Below the pieces are notes generated by a model. The model was not told the DNA's origin. It saw nothing but the letters and a program-made list of their open reading frames with translations, and ran no database searches. A DNA stretch of 64,000 nt from Chitinophagaceae bacterium (lineage in GTDB: Bacteria > Bacteroidota > Bacteroidia > Chitinophagales > Chitinophagaceae), in contig JAMLGT010000009.1 of assembly GCA_023957755.1 (NCBI GenBank), positions 124,001 through 188,000 of the forward strand, read 5' to 3'. Positions 55,675 through 64,000 of the stretch are shown here, in pieces (within the stretch, counting starts at the first letter, position 1; every line of letters begins with the position of its first letter). A program made the translations under genes and the position numbers.

Positions 55675-55783
55675 GCAAAAAATCCGGTACACTTTTCCGG
55701 AGCCACAAGGTTTTGGAACAGTGCCATTCCGGTTATCCTTGTATGGATGTGTTAGAGATTCCGGAGAAGCCTACCTTTGCGCC

Positions 55784-57154
55784 ATGCATTCTCATTTATC
55801 TGGATGGAAAGATACCATTGCAGCTATTGCCACACCGCCGGGGATAGGTGGAATAGGCGTAATACGGGTGAGTGGCGAACAGGCCTACCCGGTAGTGCAA
55901 CATCTATTTACAAAGAAGAATCTGGAAGAATTACAGGCCAATACATTGCATGTAGGACTATTGCAGGATGAAGGAGAAGTGCTGGATGAGGTAGTGTTGA
56001 GCCTTTTCAGGAAGCCGCACAGTTTTACAGGAGAAGACGTAATAGAGATCAGTTGTCATGGTTCTCCGTTTATTTTACAGCAGGTATTGGATGCGTTGGT
56101 AAGAAAAGGAGCGAGGTTGGCGAGAGCAGGAGAGTTCACCCAGCGCGCTTTTCTGAATGGCAAAATGGATCTGGCACAGGCAGAGGCCGTAGCTGATATT
56201 ATCAATGCAGAGACAAAGACTGCCCACGACACGGCAATGAATCAGTTGCGTGGTGGGTTCTCCAGAGGGCTCAATGCACTGCGAGACAAGCTGATTCATT
56301 TTGCAGCATTGATAGAACTGGAATTAGATTTCTCCGACGAAGATGTAGAGTTTGCAGACCGCACAGAGTTTAATAAGCTGATAGATGAGGCAGACGCGAA
56401 AGTGAATAACCTGATACAATCCTTTGCGCTGGGCAATGCCATTAAGAAAGGGTTGAGTGTAGCCATTATCGGTAAACCCAATGCAGGGAAAAGCACCTTA
56501 CTCAATGCACTGCTCAACGAAGAGCGTGCTATCGTGAGCGATATTGCAGGCACTACGCGCGATACCATTGAAGAGACAATAAATATTAATGGAATTCTTT
56601 TTCGCCTGATTGATACAGCCGGAATCCGCGAACACACTACCGACACCATTGAACATCTGGGAATAGAGCGCAGCAAACAGAATGCTGCCAGAGCAGATAT
56701 CATCATCTACGTAAAAGACCTGACCGACGAAGAACCTGAACCGGAATGGATGCATAGCTATCCTGAAAAGATGATAGTGGTTAATAATAAACTGGATGCA
56801 TACACGAAGCTGATGGAATCGCGGGGGAAACCCTTGCCTGAGATTACCCATGCTATATCCGCAAAAGACAAAGAATCTATCCATTGGCTCCAGGAGGCAC
56901 TGTTTCATAAAGCCCTGGCAGGGAAGAAATCAGATGGCGCTATTGTGACTAATGCACGCCATTATGAAGCACTGATCAAAACCCGTGAGAGTTTGAATGC
57001 TGTGCGTGCAGGCCTGCAACAAGGGCTTTCCGGCGATCTGATTGCAGTGGACATACGGAGGAGTCTTCATTACCTCGGCGAGATTACAGGGGTTGTAGAA
57101 GTGGATAGAGATATACTGGGGACGATATTCGGGAAGTTTTGTATAGGAAAGTAA
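55784..57154 (+). CDS. mnmE: tRNA modification GTPase MnmE
   Basis: A GTPase of 456 residues that, with MnmG, makes the 5-carboxymethylaminomethyl group on wobble uridine of tRNAs. I chose the ATG at 55784 because the conserved start DTIAAIATPPGIGGIGVIRV follows at once; the frame is open to 55721. The G domain shows GKPNAGKSTLLNALL, DTAGIRE and NNKLD. It ends FCIGK, the catalytic C-terminal motif, so the gene is intact. An integrative element begins right after its stop. Confidence 0.97.
   Translation: MHSHLSGWKDTIAAIATPPGIGGIGVIRVSGEQAYPVVQHLFTKKNLEELQANTLHVGLLQDEGEVLDEVVLSLFRKPHSFTGEDVIEISCHGSPFILQQVLDALVRKGARLARAGEFTQRAFLNGKMDLAQAEAVADIINAETKTAHDTAMNQLRGGFSRGLNALRDKLIHFAALIELELDFSDEDVEFADRTEFNKLIDEADAKVNNLIQSFALGNAIKKGLSVAIIGKPNAGKSTLLNALLNEERAIVSDIAGTTRDTIEETININGILFRLIDTAGIREHTTDTIEHLGIERSKQNAARADIIIYVKDLTDEEPEPEWMHSYPEKMIVVNNKLDAYTKLMESRGKPLPEITHAISAKDKESIHWLQEALFHKALAGKKSDGAIVTNARHYEALIKTRESLNAVRAGLQQGLSGDLIAVDIRRSLHYLGEITGVVEVDRDILGTIFGKFCIGK
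57137..57154 (+). other. Probable attachment site: last 18 nt of mnmE
   Basis: The integrase gene and its repeats begin just after mnmE. The last 18 nt encode the conserved FCIGK tail. From memory, the Salmonella SGI1 family integrates in exactly these last 18 nt of mnmE (trmE). The other end of the element is beyond the window, so the repeat cannot be confirmed. Confidence 0.55.
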
Positions 57155-57354: not shown

Positions 57355-58461
57355 ATGAAAGTAACATTGCGCCAACGCCAAAAAGGTGAGAAAATCAGTC
57401 TGTATTTAGAATATTACAGCAACGGTAAAAGACAGTATGAATACCTCAATCTTTACCTAACCCCCGACCCAGAGAAGGGAACACTTACCAAATTCCAAAA
57501 GGACGAAAACAAAAAAATTCTTGCATTAGCTGAAACAATACGCAGCAAAAGGCATTTGGAAATTGAATCCAACACCTACGACCTGCACGATAAAGAGAAG
57601 ATGAAAAGCTACTTCATTTCCTATATGGAAATGCTTGCCGAGAAGCGCAAGGATAGTATGGGCAACTATGGCAATTGGGATAGTACAATCAAGCACCTTA
57701 AAAAGTATTGCCCACGAGATATTCAGTTCAATCAAATCAACAAGCAATTTGTAGAAGGGTTTAAAGAATATTTGGTGAAGAAGGCAGTAACGAAGACAGG
57801 AGCAAAGCTTTCCACGAATACCAAGAACAGTTACTTCAATAAGTTCAAGGCAGCATTAAAGCAAGCCGTGAAAGACGGTATTATTAATAGAAACCCTGCG
57901 GAAACAGTGGAAGGTTTGCCACAAGGCGAGCCAGTGCGTGAGTTCCTTACATTGGATGAAGTCAAAGCATTGGCAAAAACTGATTGTCGTAACGACCTGA
58001 TGAAGCGAGCTTTCTTATTCAGTTGCCTTACCGGACTTCGTTTCAGTGATATTCAAAAATTGAAGTGGAGCGAGATGCAGCAGTCGGCAGAGCTTGGGCA
58101 TTATATCCGCTTCATTCAGAAGAAAACCAAAGGTTCGGAAACCTTACCTATTTCCGATGAAGCATACACCCTTACAGGCGAGCGAGGAGAACCAGGCGAG
58201 AATGTTTTTCCTGATATGATTTATTCCGACAGTCGTAATCATTCCCTCTACCGTTGGTTTATAAAAGCAGGTATTGACAAGCACATTACTTTCCATTGTG
58301 CAAGGCACACTTACGCCACTTTGCAACTCACTTTAGGTACTGATATTTTCACGGTTAGCAAATTACTTGGACATAGGCACTTAAAGACCACTCAGATTTA
58401 CGCCAATGTAATAGATGAAAAGAAAACAGTTGCAGCAAACAAAATCAAAATAGGAATTTAA
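57355..58461 (+). CDS. Tyrosine-type site-specific integrase
   Basis: A 368-residue recombinase. Residues 1-80 form an arm-DNA-binding domain, 85-185 a SAM-like core-binding domain, and 195-355 the catalytic domain. The active-site set is present: Arg229 (TGLRFSDI), His314 and Arg317 (HCARHTYA), His340 (LLGHRHLKTT) and the nucleophile Tyr349 (TQIYANV). It should catalyse insertion and excision of the element at the mnmE end. The gene reads away from mnmE. Confidence 0.95.
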   Translation: MKVTLRQRQKGEKISLYLEYYSNGKRQYEYLNLYLTPDPEKGTLTKFQKDENKKILALAETIRSKRHLEIESNTYDLHDKEKMKSYFISYMEMLAEKRKDSMGNYGNWDSTIKHLKKYCPRDIQFNQINKQFVEGFKEYLVKKAVTKTGAKLSTNTKNSYFNKFKAALKQAVKDGIINRNPAETVEGLPQGEPVREFLTLDEVKALAKTDCRNDLMKRAFLFSCLTGLRFSDIQKLKWSEMQQSAELGHYIRFIQKKTKGSETLPISDEAYTLTGERGEPGENVFPDMIYSDSRNHSLYRWFIKAGIDKHITFHCARHTYATLQLTLGTDIFTVSKLLGHRHLKTTQIYANVIDEKKTVAANKIKIGI

Positions 58462-58471
58462 AAATACGCCG

Positions 58472-59500
58472 ATGCCAGACAACCCACTTTCCGTTTTTCA
58501 CGATTTATTGTTCTTAGGGCTTCGCCCTTGGAACAATAGGTCTTTGCCGGAGGCAAAGTACAAAGAGTTAGTAAGAGAAGTTACCAACGAAGTTTACAAT
58601 CACCAACCGAAATACAAAGTTGCTTTCAGCAACCCATTAAATGCAAGGCGCAAATATTATAGTTTGATTATTACCAATGGTGCAATCCATTTTGTCAACT
58701 ACTTAAAGAATGAAGTGGATGCAGCGTTTAATGACAATGAACGACTTTATTTAGTGGCTCAACAAGCCATAAAGCCATTAGCCCAGAAACTAAAAGAAAC
58801 CAATAATATTATTGAAGAAAGGAATTTGCATTGGAGCGAGATTAAAGGAACAGCACAACTATCAAATGCCGATGCTGCTCAGGCTGATGAAGCTTACATT
58901 ATTCAATTAGTGAAGTACAATTTACTTTTTATGTATTTGGAAATTCAGAACAGCTTTCCGCAGTTTCTGAATGATGATATACTTAGTGCGGATGAACTGC
59001 ACCAAAAGTTTTTTACAGAACAAGAACTACAGCCCGGCATTATCACGGATGCGGAACAAATCAATTTGCCTACACCTGCTTCGCAGGTTAGGGCAGACCC
59101 CAACGTAATTACTTTTGAAAGAAAGGCATTTGATTTCAGAGAGCCTAAAAAAGGAGTAATGTCTTACGACCAAATTATTAGAAATAGCCAACGCTTTTCA
59201 AATTTTGAAGAAGAATTGTTTTCATACAACATAATTGATAAAGACTACAATTTTAATGATAACCAAGGTAACATACAGTTGTTGGCAGCAGCAATTCAAG
59301 TAGCAATTAAAAAGAAATATTTCTCAGTAAAGAATTTTATTAAAGGCGGTGATTTAAAGCCAAGAGAGATTACAAAATTTATTGAACATAGGTACAATCA
59401 AAATATGGATAAACAATTTCGTATTTGGAACAATAATCCTGATGCTTTAGCCAAATTCTTAGATAATCACTTTTGGATTACCAATTTACCTGTCGGTTAA
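58472..59500 (+). CDS. Element-borne protein of unknown function
   Basis: A 342-residue soluble protein I do not recognise, with no signal peptide or membrane helix. The N-terminal half is helical; a mid linker has LPTPASQVRADP, and the C-terminus ends FIEHRYNQNMDKQFRIWN and NHFWITNLP. It starts 10 nt after the integrase and is probably co-transcribed. Three perfect small palindromes lie within the gene (58516-58528, 58542-58558, 59074-59088), each with a 3-nt TTC or GGA loop, in the less conserved-looking stretches. Confidence 0.75.
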   Translation: MPDNPLSVFHDLLFLGLRPWNNRSLPEAKYKELVREVTNEVYNHQPKYKVAFSNPLNARRKYYSLIITNGAIHFVNYLKNEVDAAFNDNERLYLVAQQAIKPLAQKLKETNNIIEERNLHWSEIKGTAQLSNADAAQADEAYIIQLVKYNLLFMYLEIQNSFPQFLNDDILSADELHQKFFTEQELQPGIITDAEQINLPTPASQVRADPNVITFERKAFDFREPKKGVMSYDQIIRNSQRFSNFEEELFSYNIIDKDYNFNDNQGNIQLLAAAIQVAIKKKYFSVKNFIKGGDLKPREITKFIEHRYNQNMDKQFRIWNNNPDALAKFLDNHFWITNLPVG

Positions 59501-59698
59501 ATTGCGGTAATTTTCTGTCATTTTACCAATCCAAATTACCACTTTTTTTTGAAACCCTTGCCCAGCAAGGGTTTTGTCATTTCCAAATTACCAATTTCCA
59601 CAATACCAGCCGCTTCTTAGCAAGTTTGCATTGTCGTTGAGAACACAACGATGACTTTGGCCAAAGTCCTTTTTAATAACCGTTTAATTCATATTAAA
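59501..59698. promoter_or_regulatory. Palindrome-rich control region before the two HTH genes
   Basis: A stem AAACCCTTGC/GCAAGGGTTT with CCA loop (59552-59574) is flanked by T runs and may end the upstream transcript. Several AATTACCA-type direct repeats lie around it (about 59476, 59533 and 59587). Further right are TCGTTG-agaaca-CAACGA (59634-59651) and a perfect 16-nt palindrome GACTTTGGCCAAAGTC (59653-59668). These look like operator or excisionase sites. Confidence 0.6.
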
Positions 59699-59998
59699 AT
59701 GGATAAAGTCTTAATGCAGCTTGAAAAAATTACGAAGCTGCTTGAAACACAAAACTTGGTTCGTAAGGAAGTTCTAAACTTCGGCGAAGCCTGCGATTAT
59801 TTGGAACTATCGCATTCACACCTGTACAAATTAACCAGTACAGGAAACGTTCCGCATTACAAGCCCAATGGCAAAAAAATCTACTTCAAGCGGAGTGAGT
59901 TGGATGATTGGTTGCTACGCAACCGCAACACCACTTCGGAAGAAATAGACAAAATGGCGAGCGACTACATTCTTCACAATCAAAAACCAAGATTATGA
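59699..59998 (+). CDS. Small HTH (excisionase-like) protein 1
   Basis: A 99-residue protein from the ATG at 59699. A short coiled segment (MQLEKITKLLETQ) precedes a winged-helix HTH_17 domain (NFGEACDYLELSHSHLYKLTSTG, given as FGEACDYLELSHSHLYKLT, then IYFKRSELDDWLLRN). Such proteins act as excisionase or transcription factors in Bacteroidota elements. The frame is open to 59651 but that ATG lies inside the palindrome region. Its stop overlaps the next gene's start (ATGA). Confidence 0.88.
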   Translation: MDKVLMQLEKITKLLETQNLVRKEVLNFGEACDYLELSHSHLYKLTSTGNVPHYKPNGKKIYFKRSELDDWLLRNRNTTSEEIDKMASDYILHNQKPRL

Positions 59999-60291
59999 AT
60001 GAAGTAATGATGCTGCTCAGACAGCTTGTAGAAAACTTTGAAGTAATAAGGGCTTACATTCTATCAATCAAGAAATCCAAATTGGACAACTTGAAAGAAG
60101 CTTGGGTTGACGGCAACGAGGTTGCAAAAGCACTTAATGTAAGCAACCGAACCTTACAAACTTTCAGAGATAATGGAACACTGCCTTACAGCCGTGTTAG
60201 AGGAAAATTCTACTACAAGGTATCAGATATTGAAACCCTGTTGGAATCCAATTACTCACCTTCTAAAACCGTAAGTAATGGAACTAAATAG
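59995..60291 (+). CDS. Small HTH (excisionase-like) protein 2
   Basis: A 98-residue protein starting at 59995 within an ATGA overlap with the previous gene. The HTH_17 domain is at residues 38-88 (DGNEVAKALNVSNRTLQTFR, then SRVRGKFYYKVSDIETLLE). It is a diverged partner of the first HTH protein; tandem pairs of this sort resemble the Xis2c/Xis2d pair of CTnDOT. Its end overlaps the next gene by 14 nt. Confidence 0.88.
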   Translation: MNEVMMLLRQLVENFEVIRAYILSIKKSKLDNLKEAWVDGNEVAKALNVSNRTLQTFRDNGTLPYSRVRGKFYYKVSDIETLLESNYSPSKTVSNGTK

Positions 60292-61201
60292 AGAATCAAT
60301 ATTGTGGAATACCCACTATGGCTTAAAGATTTATGCAAGGATTTTGCAGCACTATTATCCGGGCGAAACAGTCCTTTCCCTTTCGGGAAGGGACTGCAAA
60401 CCCACAAAAAATCCTTTCAATCAGGACAAGCCCACACTTCATATTCAGATTGTGAATAATGAAGCTATTCACGAAGATTTGGAGCAAGGTATTCCAGCAG
60501 GAAATGTATTTGACTTCGCTGCAAAACATTATCAGTTAGAAGGCGATGCATTAATTCAATTCCTCAATGAAGATATGAATTTGCGCCTTCGGGCTAAAGT
60601 ACCGCCAATCTTGGAGGAGCATTATTTTGAAAGCATTCCTGAACCTGCGCCCACGCCAGTTTATTGTCCTTCATTTAGTTTCTTTTCTGCACCTGTTACC
60701 AATACAATTCCTGATGATACGGCTACACTTTTGGAAATATACTACTTACTGAAAGATGATTGTTTCAATCAAAAGACTATTGAATTAAGGAACATTCAGG
60801 ACAAGAAAGCTGCACGGAAATTCAAAGCAGCAAATTTTGACTATGTTACTTTTTCGGGCATATTTTCCAAACGAAGCGATGATGCACTTATCAGGCATTC
60901 AGGATTACTCACCATAGATTTTGACCATATCAGCAATATTGCTGATATGAAATCTATGTTATTGCAGGACGAATACTTTGATACAGAACTTTTGTTCATA
61001 TCACCGTCAGGCGACGGCTTGAAGTGGATTATCCCAATTGATATATCAACAGCCACGCACCAGGATTATTTCCGAGCCATTGCAAGCTACATAAAACAAA
61101 CCTACGGATTGGAAATTGACCAATCAGGCAAGGACGTTTCCCGAGCTTGTTTTATGGCGCACGATGCCGAAGCATTCATTAACCCTAAATACATTTCATA
61201 A
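60278..61201 (+). CDS. BT4734/VirE-type primase-like protein
   Basis: A 307-residue protein. Residues 1-130 recall the DNA-binding part of primases (NPFNQDKPTLHIQ, AGNVFDFAAKHYQL). Residues 170-305 are the BT4734-like (VirE N-terminal) domain, with DFDHISN acidic pair, SPSGDGLKWI and KDVSRACFM, as in archaeo-eukaryotic primase folds. It probably primes element replication together with the next gene. A 12-bp palindrome (60369-60396) is embedded near the N-terminus where the residues read VLSLSGRD. Confidence 0.85.
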   Translation: MELNRESILWNTHYGLKIYARILQHYYPGETVLSLSGRDCKPTKNPFNQDKPTLHIQIVNNEAIHEDLEQGIPAGNVFDFAAKHYQLEGDALIQFLNEDMNLRLRAKVPPILEEHYFESIPEPAPTPVYCPSFSFFSAPVTNTIPDDTATLLEIYYLLKDDCFNQKTIELRNIQDKKAARKFKAANFDYVTFSGIFSKRSDDALIRHSGLLTIDFDHISNIADMKSMLLQDEYFDTELLFISPSGDGLKWIIPIDISTATHQDYFRAIASYIKQTYGLEIDQSGKDVSRACFMAHDAEAFINPKYIS

Positions 61202-61202
61202 T

Positions 61203-62912
61203 ATGGCAAAGAAAGTTTTCAAACCCTCTGATTGGTTGGAGCAGCCAAAGCAGAAAATAGCAGAGCCGGTAATACAACTGCCTATTGTGGTATCGGATAA
61301 TGAACAAATTGAACAGGTCATTCAGGAGATTGAAGCAAAGCGTTTGGATATTGCCACGGCTTACGCCGATTGGCGAGATATTGGCTTCGCCTTCGCTGAT
61401 GCTTTTGGCGAAAGCGGAAGGGATTATTTTCACCGTATAAGTTGCTTTTATGATGATTATACGCCTACAGATTGCAATGAGCAATACGACAAATGCCTAA
61501 AGGCAAATGGTACAGGAATTACACTTGCTACATTCTTCTTTCACGCCAAGCAAGCAGGTATCAAACTTGCACCGCCAAGCCAGTCGCAAGACGCACCGCC
61601 CGAAGTGTTGCCCACTTTCGGGCAACAGGTGTATGACAATCTACCTGATTTCTTAAAGTCGGTCATTGGCATTGCTACAAGTGATGAAGAAAAGGATATA
61701 TTAATATTGGGCAGCATTGTTAGCCTTAGTGCTTGTTTACACAAGCTCTACGGCATTTATGACGGTAAGCGGGTTTTTCCCAATTTATATCTTTTCATTA
61801 CGGCGCAAGCCTCAGCAGGTAAGGGCAGGTTAATCCACTGCAAGCAGTTGGTTAAACCAGTACATAAACAGTTGAGGGAACAAGCAGAACTATTGAAGAA
61901 GCAGTACGAAGCCGAAATGTTGGAGTACAATCAAAGCAAAGGCAAAGACAGCAATGCACAAAAGCCCGGCAAGCCCCCCGAAAAAATGTTGTTCATTCCA
62001 GCAAACAACAGCACTACAGGTGTGTATCAATTGTTGAGCGATAATAATTGCCGTGGACTAATGTTTGAAACCGAAGGCGATACTTTGGCACAAGCCTTCA
62101 AGTCTGATTATGGTAATTACAGCGAAGGTTTTCGCAAGGCATTTCACCACGAAACTATTTCCTATTACCGCCGTACAGACCGAGAATATGCAGACATTGA
62201 AGAACCTTGTTTGTCCACGGTGTTGTCGGGCACACCCAAGCAAATTGCAACGCTTATTCCCAATGCAGAAAATGGTTTGTTCAGTCGCTTCATTTTCTAT
62301 TTTATGAATGTGCAAGTAGTTTGGAAGAATGTATTTGCATTTGATACCGACAATGGTTTGGACGATTATTTTGATAAGTTAGGAAATGATTTTTTCAGTT
62401 TGTATCAGATGATTGCCAATGGTGCAGAACTTCAATTTGCACTCACCGCCGAGCAGAAGCAGCAGTTCAATTCTTTGTTTGAGCAGTTGCAGAGTACACA
62501 CATTGCATTGCAGGGCTTAGATTATATGGCTACGGTACGCCGTCTTGGTCTGATTGCCTTTCGGATAGCTATGGTCCTATCTGCATTGAGGATAATGGAA
62601 CACGGTGAGTTTCCAAGCAAATTGATTTGCGAGGATAGGGATTTCAATACTGTAATGGCGATGATAAAAGTATTGGTTAGGCATTCAGGCAAAGTCTTTG
62701 CCGAACTGCCCGAAGATGCACCCAAACCCAAACGCAAGAACCAAAAAGAACGCTTCTACGAGTCATTGCCCCAGTCCTTCAATCGGCAGAATTACTTAAA
62801 GGTTTGCAATGAATTGCGTATCCCCGAAAAGACTGCCGAAGGCTACATAACCGACTTCTGCAAGCGTGGTTTGTTGCATAGAGATAAGCAGAACGACTAC
62901 CTGAAAAACTGA
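61203..62912 (+). CDS. PriCT-2 / DUF3987 replication protein
   Basis: A protein of about 569 residues from the ATG at 61203, one base after the previous stop; the open frame to 61116 overlaps that gene. Residues 40-120 fit PriCT-2 (DIATAYADWRDIGFAFADAF, then YDKCLKANGTGITLATFF). The DUF3987 ATPase-like part has ITAQASAGKGRLIH (P-loop-like), LMFETEGDTLA (Walker B-like) and CLSTVLSGTPKQI. A small winged-helix-like C-terminus follows (RIPEKTAEGYITDFCKRG). It likely works as a helicase partner of the primase-like protein. Confidence 0.88.
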   Translation: MAKKVFKPSDWLEQPKQKIAEPVIQLPIVVSDNEQIEQVIQEIEAKRLDIATAYADWRDIGFAFADAFGESGRDYFHRISCFYDDYTPTDCNEQYDKCLKANGTGITLATFFFHAKQAGIKLAPPSQSQDAPPEVLPTFGQQVYDNLPDFLKSVIGIATSDEEKDILILGSIVSLSACLHKLYGIYDGKRVFPNLYLFITAQASAGKGRLIHCKQLVKPVHKQLREQAELLKKQYEAEMLEYNQSKGKDSNAQKPGKPPEKMLFIPANNSTTGVYQLLSDNNCRGLMFETEGDTLAQAFKSDYGNYSEGFRKAFHHETISYYRRTDREYADIEEPCLSTVLSGTPKQIATLIPNAENGLFSRFIFYFMNVQVVWKNVFAFDTDNGLDDYFDKLGNDFFSLYQMIANGAELQFALTAEQKQQFNSLFEQLQSTHIALQGLDYMATVRRLGLIAFRIAMVLSALRIMEHGEFPSKLICEDRDFNTVMAMIKVLVRHSGKVFAELPEDAPKPKRKNQKERFYESLPQSFNRQNYLKVCNELRIPEKTAEGYITDFCKRGLLHRDKQNDYLKN

Positions 62913-62944
62913 ACCTAAGTAAGTTCAGGATTTTAAGGAAATCA

Positions 62945-62987
62945 AGGAAAGCCGCCCTTATCGGGCTACGCTTTCCTTTTTTATTTT
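62945..62987 (+). terminator. Terminator closing the replication module
   Basis: AGGAAAGC and GCTTTCCT form the outer stem, GCCC-ttat-GGGC the inner one, followed by a T-rich run (TTTTTTATTTT). It lies 33 nt after the DUF3987 stop and separates it from the XRE unit. Confidence 0.85.
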
Positions 62988-63084: not shown

Positions 63085-63092
63085 TATATTTG
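63085..63092 (+). promoter_or_regulatory. Candidate -7 box (TATATTTG) for the XRE/cargo unit
   Basis: A perfect TAnnTTTG match. TTG at 63060-63062 lies 22 nt upstream, slightly longer than usual. The implied start of transcription (about 63098-63100) favours the ATG at 63115 for the XRE gene, or a leaderless start at 63100. Confidence 0.6.
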
Positions 63093-63099
63093 ACAGCAA

Positions 63100-63408
63100 A
63101 TGACAAGCCATAGTATGTCTGATAAAACATTCGGAGAAACAATAAGAGCGTTAAGGGAGAGCAAAGGATTACTGCTCAGGCAGGTTGCAGCAGCTTTGGA
63201 GATAGATACCGCACTCATAAGCAAAATAGAGCGAGGCGAGCGGACAGCCCAGCGAGAGCAGGTTTCCAAGTTGGCAGCAATGCTTGAAATTGAAGAAGAA
63301 CGGCTTATGGTGATTTGGTTATCCGATAAGATTATGAATATCGTAGAGGAAGAACCTGCGGCATACAAGGCACTTAAAAAAACTGAAAAACGAATAACAA
63401 AGAACTGA
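63100..63408 (+). CDS. XRE-family transcriptional regulator
   Basis: A 102-residue protein (97 if Met6 at 63115 is used). The HTH_3 domain covers residues 10-70 (FGETIRALRESKGLLLRQVA, then IDTALISKIERGERTAQREQ), followed by a helical tail (LMVIWLSDKIMNIVEEEPAA). Regulators of this look often sit beside restriction or other defence genes in Bacteroidota, where they may control dosage; that is recalled, not shown here. It has its own promoter and heads the cargo unit. Confidence 0.92.
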   Translation: MTSHSMSDKTFGETIRALRESKGLLLRQVAAALEIDTALISKIERGERTAQREQVSKLAAMLEIEEERLMVIWLSDKIMNIVEEEPAAYKALKKTEKRITKN

Positions 63409-63409
63409 T

Positions 63410-63541
63410 ATGGACGGACAATCTTTGAACATTTCCCAAGACTTAATTGCAAAGCTGAAAGAAGTTGTTCTCGTCGCTGTCACAGAAAATAATCAAATCC
63501 GTTGTGAAGAAATTGCAGTGGACGTACAATTAAAACCTTAA
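63410..63541 (+). CDS. Small 43-residue ORF downstream of XRE
   Basis: The ATG overlaps the XRE stop region (TGATATG, 1 nt apart). The product begins MDGQSLNISQDLIAKLKEVV and ends AVDVQLKP, slightly acidic, with one probable helix and no signal peptide. The tight spacing on both sides (19 nt to the next ATG) supports real translation. It could be a small partner of the downstream protein or only a coupling peptide; I do not recognise it. Confidence 0.5.
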   Translation: MDGQSLNISQDLIAKLKEVVLVAVTENNQIRCEEIAVDVQLKP

Positions 63542-63560
63542 CCAAACTGTTCAATTCACT

Positions 63561-64000
63561 ATGTCCGAAAAATTATTCTTTAATATTCTAACATTTGACT
63601 ATCCTAAGCAAGCGATAGATTTTTACTTTAGCCTTGATGATAATGGCAGTGCTTCACGATTGCATAAAACACTGTTTCCAAAAAACATAAGTTCCATTTT
63701 CCCAAATATTACCAACAATCCTGATGCAGATTTTATCTACACAACTTTTATCGGAGAAACAAAAGGATTTACTAAGCTTTCAATTGACTTCAAAACTGAA
63801 AATCAGGACTTGCTAAAAAGGTTTTACAATGGACAGCTTAATTATTATTTCAGCAAGATAAAAGAGCAGGTTGTAAGGACAGGCTTCATTAGGGAAACAC
63901 AAGTTTGGCTTCCAGTTACAAATGCTTCAAAATCTGATTTTAGCACCTACGATAAGTTTACAGTAAAAGTTCAGTTTCACAATGTGAGTGATTATCCGGA
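63561..64000 (+). CDS. N-terminus of a large unknown protein, possibly a long prokaryotic Argonaute (cut by window end)
   Basis: The frame is open from ATG 63561 to the window end (146 residues seen). It begins MSEKLFFNILTFDYPKQAID; later stretches are LHKTLFPKNISSIFPNI, FIYTTFIGETKGFTKLSID, LNYYFSKIKEQVVRTGFI, TQVWLPVTNASKSDFSTYD and FTVKVQFHNVSDYP. There is no signal peptide or membrane helix. From memory this resembles the N domain of long Argonautes from Bacteroidota. No PAZ, MID or PIWI segment is within reach, so the family call is tentative. Its place in a mobile element behind an XRE gene fits a defence role. Confidence 0.4.
   Translation, partial: MSEKLFFNILTFDYPKQAIDFYFSLDDNGSASRLHKTLFPKNISSIFPNITNNPDADFIYTTFIGETKGFTKLSIDFKTENQDLLKRFYNGQLNYYFSKIKEQVVRTGFIRETQVWLPVTNASKSDFSTYDKFTVKVQFHNVSDYP

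Follow-up and report, generated by a model that had tools for sequence, protein, structure and literature searches.

Long-B prokaryotic Argonautes (pAgos) are known, and there are published statistics on their HTH, restriction, efflux and VirE-N neighbours. The survey sections consulted here record lambda-repressor-type HTH proteins in pAgo operons, DNA-binding proteins in 33% of long-B operons and RND efflux genes, for which the survey could give no reason, in 14% (PMC6299218, 2018). Restriction proteins are likewise noted in pAgo operons (PMC10620215, PMC6299218), and in one long-B subclade VirE-N genes lie 2-8 genes upstream (PMC10620215, Song et al. 2023). For this subclade, og_54 VirE-N, the consulted sections present neighbours as statistics and leave the function open (PMC10620215, PMC6299218); an explanation is said to be awaited for those long-B pAgos that have VirE-N neighbours or lack a partner (PMC10620215, Song et al. 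2023). In the BPAN, BPAS and BPAM systems a dead long Argonaute, presumed to be the sensor, is encoded ahead of its effector, and the gene after RsAgo is predicted to encode a nuclease (consulted parts of PMC10620215), while AfAgo is split from its N part (consulted parts of PMC10954474). Islands of the SGI1 type integrate at the trmE 3′ end (consulted parts of PMC8409611).

The locus described here resembles several of these systems and matches none of them fully. With the og_54 VirE-N subclade it shares a full-length, predicted dead Argonaute with a YK-type MID pocket and a VirE_N-type gene a few genes upstream. The PF08800 gene is the fourth ORF upstream of ago when the putative scar described below is counted, which lies within the 2-8-gene range, and from its name PF08800 would correspond to the VirE-N of og_54. 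The difference from the consulted parts of those papers is one of reading, as we take the VirE_N gene to be a replication gene of an island and ago to be the last gene of an operon, behind a changeable payload. As in BPAN, BPAS and BPAM, a dead long Argonaute, presumably a sensor, would be encoded in an operon; unlike there, no conserved effector lies downstream and the Argonaute ends the operon. RsAgo and AfAgo are relatives in the PDB sequence search and have an inactive PIWI domain, but their operons are different. With SGI1-type islands, which are found in Gammaproteobacteria, the locus was compared for its integration target, which is the same. Finally, control XRE proteins of restriction-modification (R-M) systems are encoded by a small XRE gene just before the R-M genes, an arrangement seen in 10 of 20 comparison loci, whereas here the XRE gene precedes the putative scar and the Argonaute.

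A preliminary description of this DNA had considered the layout undescribed. In part it is in print, in the form of HTH proteins in pAgo operons and VirE-N genes upstream of long-B pAgos (consulted parts of PMC6299218 and PMC10620215); the layout of the island as a whole was not encountered. The literature searched, with few subscription journals and no bioRxiv text, yielded no account of an island carrier, an mnmE target, the order XRE-slot-ago or a scar.

An integrative element at the 3′ end of mnmE

The window is a stretch of 64,000 nucleotides, positions 124001-188000 of contig 35 of the source genome (G000); the contig ends at 188388. Its right-hand part holds a run of genes on one strand that begins at the end of the host gene mnmE, also named trmE (Table 1). 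The preliminary description had located its XRE-headed unit on an integrative element, behind the replication genes, and this was borne out, with integrase, HTH_17, BT4734-like_N and PriCT_2/DUF3987 genes filling 57355-62912. The three ORFs of the unit are real; the second begins one base past the XRE stop, and the third is a long open frame. Ahead of the unit, the proposed terminator is supported by a strong hairpin and T run (-19.5 kcal/mol, z -4.8, with 0 of 200 shuffles equally good in the fold test), although a simple terminator scan did not list it. The proposed TATATTTG box is also present, and it resembles the Bacteroidota promoter consensus. The two-part promoter pattern used to test it occurs 3 times in the window against 3.3 expected by chance, so the promoter is unproven.

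Table 1 Features of the mnmE-proximal part of the island and the XRE-headed unit, in window coordinates.
Feature	Position	Strand	Evidence or remark
Host mnmE (trmE), 3′ end = integration site	55721..57154	+	ORF; Pfam MnmE_helical/TrmE_N on L021 counterpart; GTG start maybe too early
Left attachment core, last bases of mnmE	57134..57154	+	18-bp exact repeat 30.4 kb off in L021/G117 contig
Tyrosine integrase	57355..58461	+	Phage_integrase E 8.7e-22, Phage_int_SAM_5 E 2e-25
DUF6617 protein of element	58472..59500	+	E 1.4e-9
HTH_17 protein, excisionase-like by inference	59651..59998	+	E 1.8e-12
Second HTH_17 protein, real start probably later than TTG	59908..60291	+	E 7.2e-10
BT4734-like_N (VirE_N-type) primase part	60278..61201	+	PF08800 E 2.3e-22
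PriCT_2 + DUF3987 replication protein, real start probably later than TTG	61116..62912	+	DUF3987 E 2.5e-58, PriCT_2 E 1e-12
Terminator-like hairpin then T run	62944..62978	+	Fold z -4.79
TATATTTG box, Bacteroidota-type promoter candidate (unproven)	63085..63092	+	Sequence
XRE regulator	63100..63408	+	102 aa; HTH_31 E 2.5e-10, HTH_3 E 1e-8
43-codon ORF, read as deletion scar	63410..63541	+	Similarity to mod start and helicase-like gene end
N-terminal part of long Argonaute gene, predicted catalytically inactive	63561..64000	+	PADLOC pAgo E 1.5e-69; runs on to contig end

The limits of the element were drawn by comparison with L021, an element in the metagenome-assembled genome SZAS-28 (G117 contig 74), which a genome search assigns to another genus of the same family. 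Homology starts at 57134, inside the mnmE 3′ end, and runs to 64000 with 99.8% identity (13 mismatches in 6867 bp), which points to transfer of the element. In the L021/G117 contig the integrase also lies beside mnmE, and the exact repeat of the mnmE end is found 30.4 kb away, beyond a metal-resistance-like cluster. The source genome gave no match for the right-end repeat pattern, while the left side is present. Across 12 islands tested, the repeat was located 3′ of ago in seven, with 0-1 mismatch in three and 3-4 mismatches in four; the latter are weaker, being near the best of shuffled cores, yet one motif is common to them. It was not found in the other five, over the 6.8 to 39.8 kb read. 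Of the 29 related loci defined below, 14 have mnmE adjacent to the integrase, and all 14 integrases score at least 450 bits. Integrases of L136 and L148 also reach at least 450 bits, in regions that end too near the integrase to judge mnmE. In eight loci the integrase is of another type (35-48 bits), and the sequence read there contains no mnmE.

The metal-resistance-like cluster (copper, others) occupies L021:12195-20745, inside the island after ago, and occurs also in L040; one P-type ATPase and DUF3347 proteins were assigned by Pfam, the rest by eye. The source genome holds a second complete Argonaute of 731 aa on a second island (G000 contig 7, 64240-66435; L003, L037, L146). This island has genes that cluster with Abi_2 and type III restriction genes, and after ago a stretch of about 90% DNA identity to the metal-resistance cluster of L021.

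Identity and catalytic site of the Argonaute

The source contig stops 388 bases past the window end, so its ago frame can be read only to 276 aa. This fragment matched the PADLOC pAgo profile over residues 3-275, and Pfam and PDB searches with the fragment alone led nowhere. When the remainder was sought in the source genome, only the second island on contig 7 and the known end of contig 35 were recovered. The full frame is thus known only through the near-identical L021, in which it is complete with 690 codons. The L021 protein matches the PADLOC pAgo profile with E 4.5e-268 and Pfam Piwi (PF02171) over residues 398-671 with E 2.8e-15. A profile of 15 relatives retrieved AfAgo, EcAgo, RsAgo and one short pAgo from the PDB at E <= 0.001, the MID-PIWI part aligning with the first three, along with a weak match to a eukaryotic Piwi-like protein (E 0.047). 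Judged from these matches the long ORF is an Argonaute gene, as the preliminary description had suspected from its N-terminal part, and the MID and PIWI domains that it proposed to seek further on in the frame are both there in the L021 copy. Pfam shows no PAZ match in the 690 aa, and an AlphaFold model built from four sequences was poor (pLDDT 41). From its nearest PDB relatives and its motifs the protein fits the long-B pAgos. Comparing L021 with a further locus, L022, gave a dN/dS for ago of 0.08 over the full gene and 0.04 over the window fragment, which suggests purifying selection.

Active Argonautes have aspartate at the catalytic positions concerned (the DEDX motif), and AfAgo, EcAgo, RsAgo and the short pAgo retrieved above are catalytically inactive. 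In the relatives of the present protein the first catalytic position is a glycine (GIG), as seen in 15/15 aligned sequences and in 34 of 36 full-length ones, the motif not being found in the other two; an IHFYK stretch near the third catalytic position is invariant in 15/15. These alignments contained no active Argonaute; a search of 178 genomes of the phylum for other Piwi genes found them in six, none of which was used as an active reference. By sequence, the Argonaute is predicted to be cleavage-dead, with the DEDX tetrad lost. An active Argonaute nuclease, which the preliminary description had proposed with DEDX residues as support, is rejected by sequence, on the glycine together with the inactive PDB relatives. 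The guide pocket looks intact. The C-terminal residue of an Argonaute takes part in this pocket, and Y403, K407, Q418 and K446 as well as the C-terminal L690 are invariant in 15/15, consistent with a canonical YK 5′-phosphate pocket; the YK motif of the MID pocket is used here as defined in the consulted part of PMC6299218.

The payload slot in related islands

For comparison we used every locus with an Argonaute profile score of at least 735, which gave 29 loci including L021. They came from overlapping searches of 195, 395 and 396 genomes and are not independent. Left out below this score were L151, L152, L164 and L167 (primase, integrase and XRE all unmatched upstream of ago, with only 4.2 kb available for L167), L165 (a broken ago that has XRE and mnmE but lacks primase and integrase matches) and the loci of G422, G475, G294 and G592; L166 has no ago match, and L022 and the viral contig L103 stand outside the 29.

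A primase-type match (VirE_N or DUF3987) lies upstream of ago on the same strand in all 29 loci; in 26 a full-length DUF3987 gene (400 aa or more) is present. An integrase was found in 24; of the five others, four (L140, L145, L158, L162) end at a region or contig edge. XRE genes of this family are present in 22 islands and absent from seven. The usual order is integrase, primase, XRE, payload, ago. The last upstream gene is at most 50 bp from ago in 24/29 (median 16 bp), and in 28/29 the interval between primase and ago is free of opposite-strand genes of at least 150 aa; in the slot of L144, two ORFs on the opposite strand, 132 and 149 aa long, fall just below this cut-off. That ago is random cargo is ruled out by the 29/29 association with the primase and the operon-like spacing.

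Payload classes were assigned from clusters and from Pfam hits on 40 representatives. R-M or methyltransferase genes (types I, II, III, ISP, MmeI) fill the slot in 22/29, and four loci carry something else: a Fic gene with a small partner in L134 and L144, the latter also with metal-efflux-like genes, a Schlafen-type gene with putative AAA- and UvrD-like genes in L153, and Abi_2 in L160. The slot is empty, with nothing of at least 60 aa, in the remaining three (window/L021, L141, L159). L021 and L022 are 97% identical over ago, a similarity that starts 30 bp before ago and leaves a different gene upstream in L022, as would be expected if payloads were swapped beside ago. Downstream of ago, the first gene falls into 20 clusters among 30 loci (L022 included), the largest with four members, which rules out a conserved downstream effector; in L021 it is an AraC-type regulator, followed by the metal-resistance cluster.

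Between XRE and ago the window has the 43-residue ORF, which the preliminary description had taken for a small partner of the Argonaute. In L136 (G036) the gene right after XRE is a 684-aa methyltransferase (mod; N6_N4_Mtase E 3.1e-34), and the gene directly preceding ago is a 1615-aa helicase-like gene (AAA_12 and UvrD-helicase); the two are the first and last of the payload and lie about 10 kb apart. Residues 1-34 (about 1-35) of the small ORF match the start of mod (phmmer E 4e-6), and residues 29-42 match the end of the helicase-like gene over the short span of 14 aa (71%, E 0.006), or 45 bp in DNA (78%, E 0.002). Each half is modest alone, and it is the order and location of both within one locus that make the case for a scar. 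Hence the ORF is probably an in-frame scar joining the start of mod to the end of the helicase-like gene, and the reading as a small partner is probably wrong. Conservation next to homologues, which had been suggested as a check, was not observed: matches occur in 2/298 genomes of the order, namely the source genome and G036, the latter through the N-terminus of the 684-aa methyltransferase frame. A partner or toxin was discarded on the basis of the scar matches and this distribution. The case serves as a warning that a tightly coupled small ORF can be a deletion scar.

The XRE family extends beyond these islands, with relatives in 66/298 genomes of the order. In 20 control loci chosen for having no known ago nearby there was no primase (0/20), an integrase match in four and a weak ago match in one (L177, 20.6 bits). 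R-M homologues were among the next four genes in 10/20, L177 included, and in 11/20 the end of XRE overlaps the start codon of the following gene. The family often sits before restriction genes, a position from which it may control them.

Protein distances of the Argonaute correlated best with those of the HTH_17 protein (r 0.66, p 0.001); the correlation with XRE is weak (r 0.34, p 0.026), and that with the primase has r 0.28 (p 0.007). They were uncorrelated with integrase distances (r 0.001, p 0.47), so Argonaute and integrase do not travel as one fixed unit. Of 16 other primase loci in the family, none gave an ago match; the downstream sequence available was at least 8 kb in 11 of them and under 3 kb in five, and one short control, L202, probably represents the half that is missing from the L145 island, which has ago. 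Together with the missing integrase correlation, these loci suggest that the Argonaute is typical of a subset of the islands and that integrases are exchanged.

Interrupted or fragmentary ago copies in G577 contig 3 (L100), G592 contig 6 (L101) and G102 contig 3 (L018) indicate that the gene is sometimes lost. One relative was found among the viral contigs searched, an Argonaute of 55% identity behind a helicase-like gene on an IMG/VR contig (L103:4442-6496), with putative phage terminase, portal and capsid genes nearby. Among plasmid records, 10 contained remote proteins and nothing closer; identity was 21-26%, and in no case did the match extend over 80% of the query. More distant Argonautes at L086:9668-10936 and L099:10132-11349 are followed by putative Sir2-like genes, as in BPAS.

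Possible roles of the Argonaute

We favour, with slightly better than even confidence, an island whose XRE-headed operon ends in a dead long Argonaute, which has lost its payload here, keeps the small ORF as a scar and encodes an Argonaute that binds without cutting. The island would have inserted at the mnmE 3′ end, with its left part in the window, as a same-strand run of integrase, HTH_17 and VirE_N/DUF3987 primase genes, then a mostly XRE-headed operon with ago last. The slot between XRE and ago would take a changeable R-M or other payload in relatives; here an internal deletion would have removed it and left XRE and Argonaute as a two-gene unit. XRE may set the expression of the operon. 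The Argonaute would hold a short 5′-phosphorylated guide, probably an RNA like those of RsAgo, AfAgo and EcAgo, and bind complementary invader DNA without a cut; in the closest relatives that have been studied, RNA guides are directed at DNA (consulted parts of PMC10620215 and PMC10954474). On full islands a restriction nuclease or a host nuclease might then destroy the marked DNA, whereas on the scarred island the bound Argonaute might act as a roadblock alone or rely on host nucleases. The link between Argonaute and restriction enzyme is a prediction, and the common operons could reflect hitchhiking, as three of the 29 islands keep ago without a payload.

These three islands also speak for a silencing role of the Argonaute on its own, in which it binds invader DNA through its guide and then stops replication or transcription, or recruits nucleases of the host, the restriction genes being mere co-regulated neighbours. 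Guide-directed blocking or recruitment of host nucleases has reportedly been proposed for RsAgo. The low dN/dS of the scarred copy against L022, over the full gene and the fragment alike, the varying payload types and the lack of a conserved gene downstream of ago agree with such a role; however, empty slots are a minority, and little space separates the payload from ago on their common strand, so that we regard it as somewhat improbable. The scar itself implies payload loss, and interrupted ago copies exist in G577 and G592, as would be expected if the XRE-scar-ago remnant were non-functional, decaying cargo. Against this stand the ago frame, open over 690 codons in both L021 and L022 with a dN/dS of 0.08, and the occurrence of the same layout in two genera, though the latter may go back to one recent transfer; we consider decay quite unlikely.

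A service to the island, by which the Argonaute excludes rival islands from mnmE or controls island replication or excision, seems to us about as unlikely as decay. It would fit the position of ago downstream of this primase type in every locus at or above the score of 735 and the fact that its best distance correlation is with the island HTH_17 gene, but most payloads (22/29) are classic defence genes and the source genome holds a second such island on contig 7. That island carries an integrase of the other type and does not adjoin mnmE, so it does not count against exclusion at mnmE itself. Least probable, and very unlikely in our view, is abortive infection of the BPAN, BPAS or BPAM kind, with the dead Argonaute activating a toxic effector encoded right beside ago. 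Characterised long-B pAgos do act together with an effector encoded downstream, be it a nuclease, Sir2 or membrane protein (consulted parts of PMC10620215 and PMC10954474), yet the first gene after ago is scattered over the 20 clusters given above, a count of clusters only that is compatible with scattered effectors, and in L021 that place is taken by the AraC-type regulator and the metal-resistance cluster.

Reading the locus as such an island offers an account of two neighbours reported for long-B pAgos: VirE-N would be the island primase, and RND efflux genes would belong to the metal-resistance neighbours. The island reading also supplies natural test objects, namely related Argonautes whose payload is of type I, II or III or is absent. 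A wider claim, that a dead Argonaute is a standing part of a family of integrative defence islands, often located at mnmE, and hands guide-bound targets to an interchangeable restriction payload, is one we put forward as doubtful; if it were true, one Argonaute sensor would serve many nucleases.
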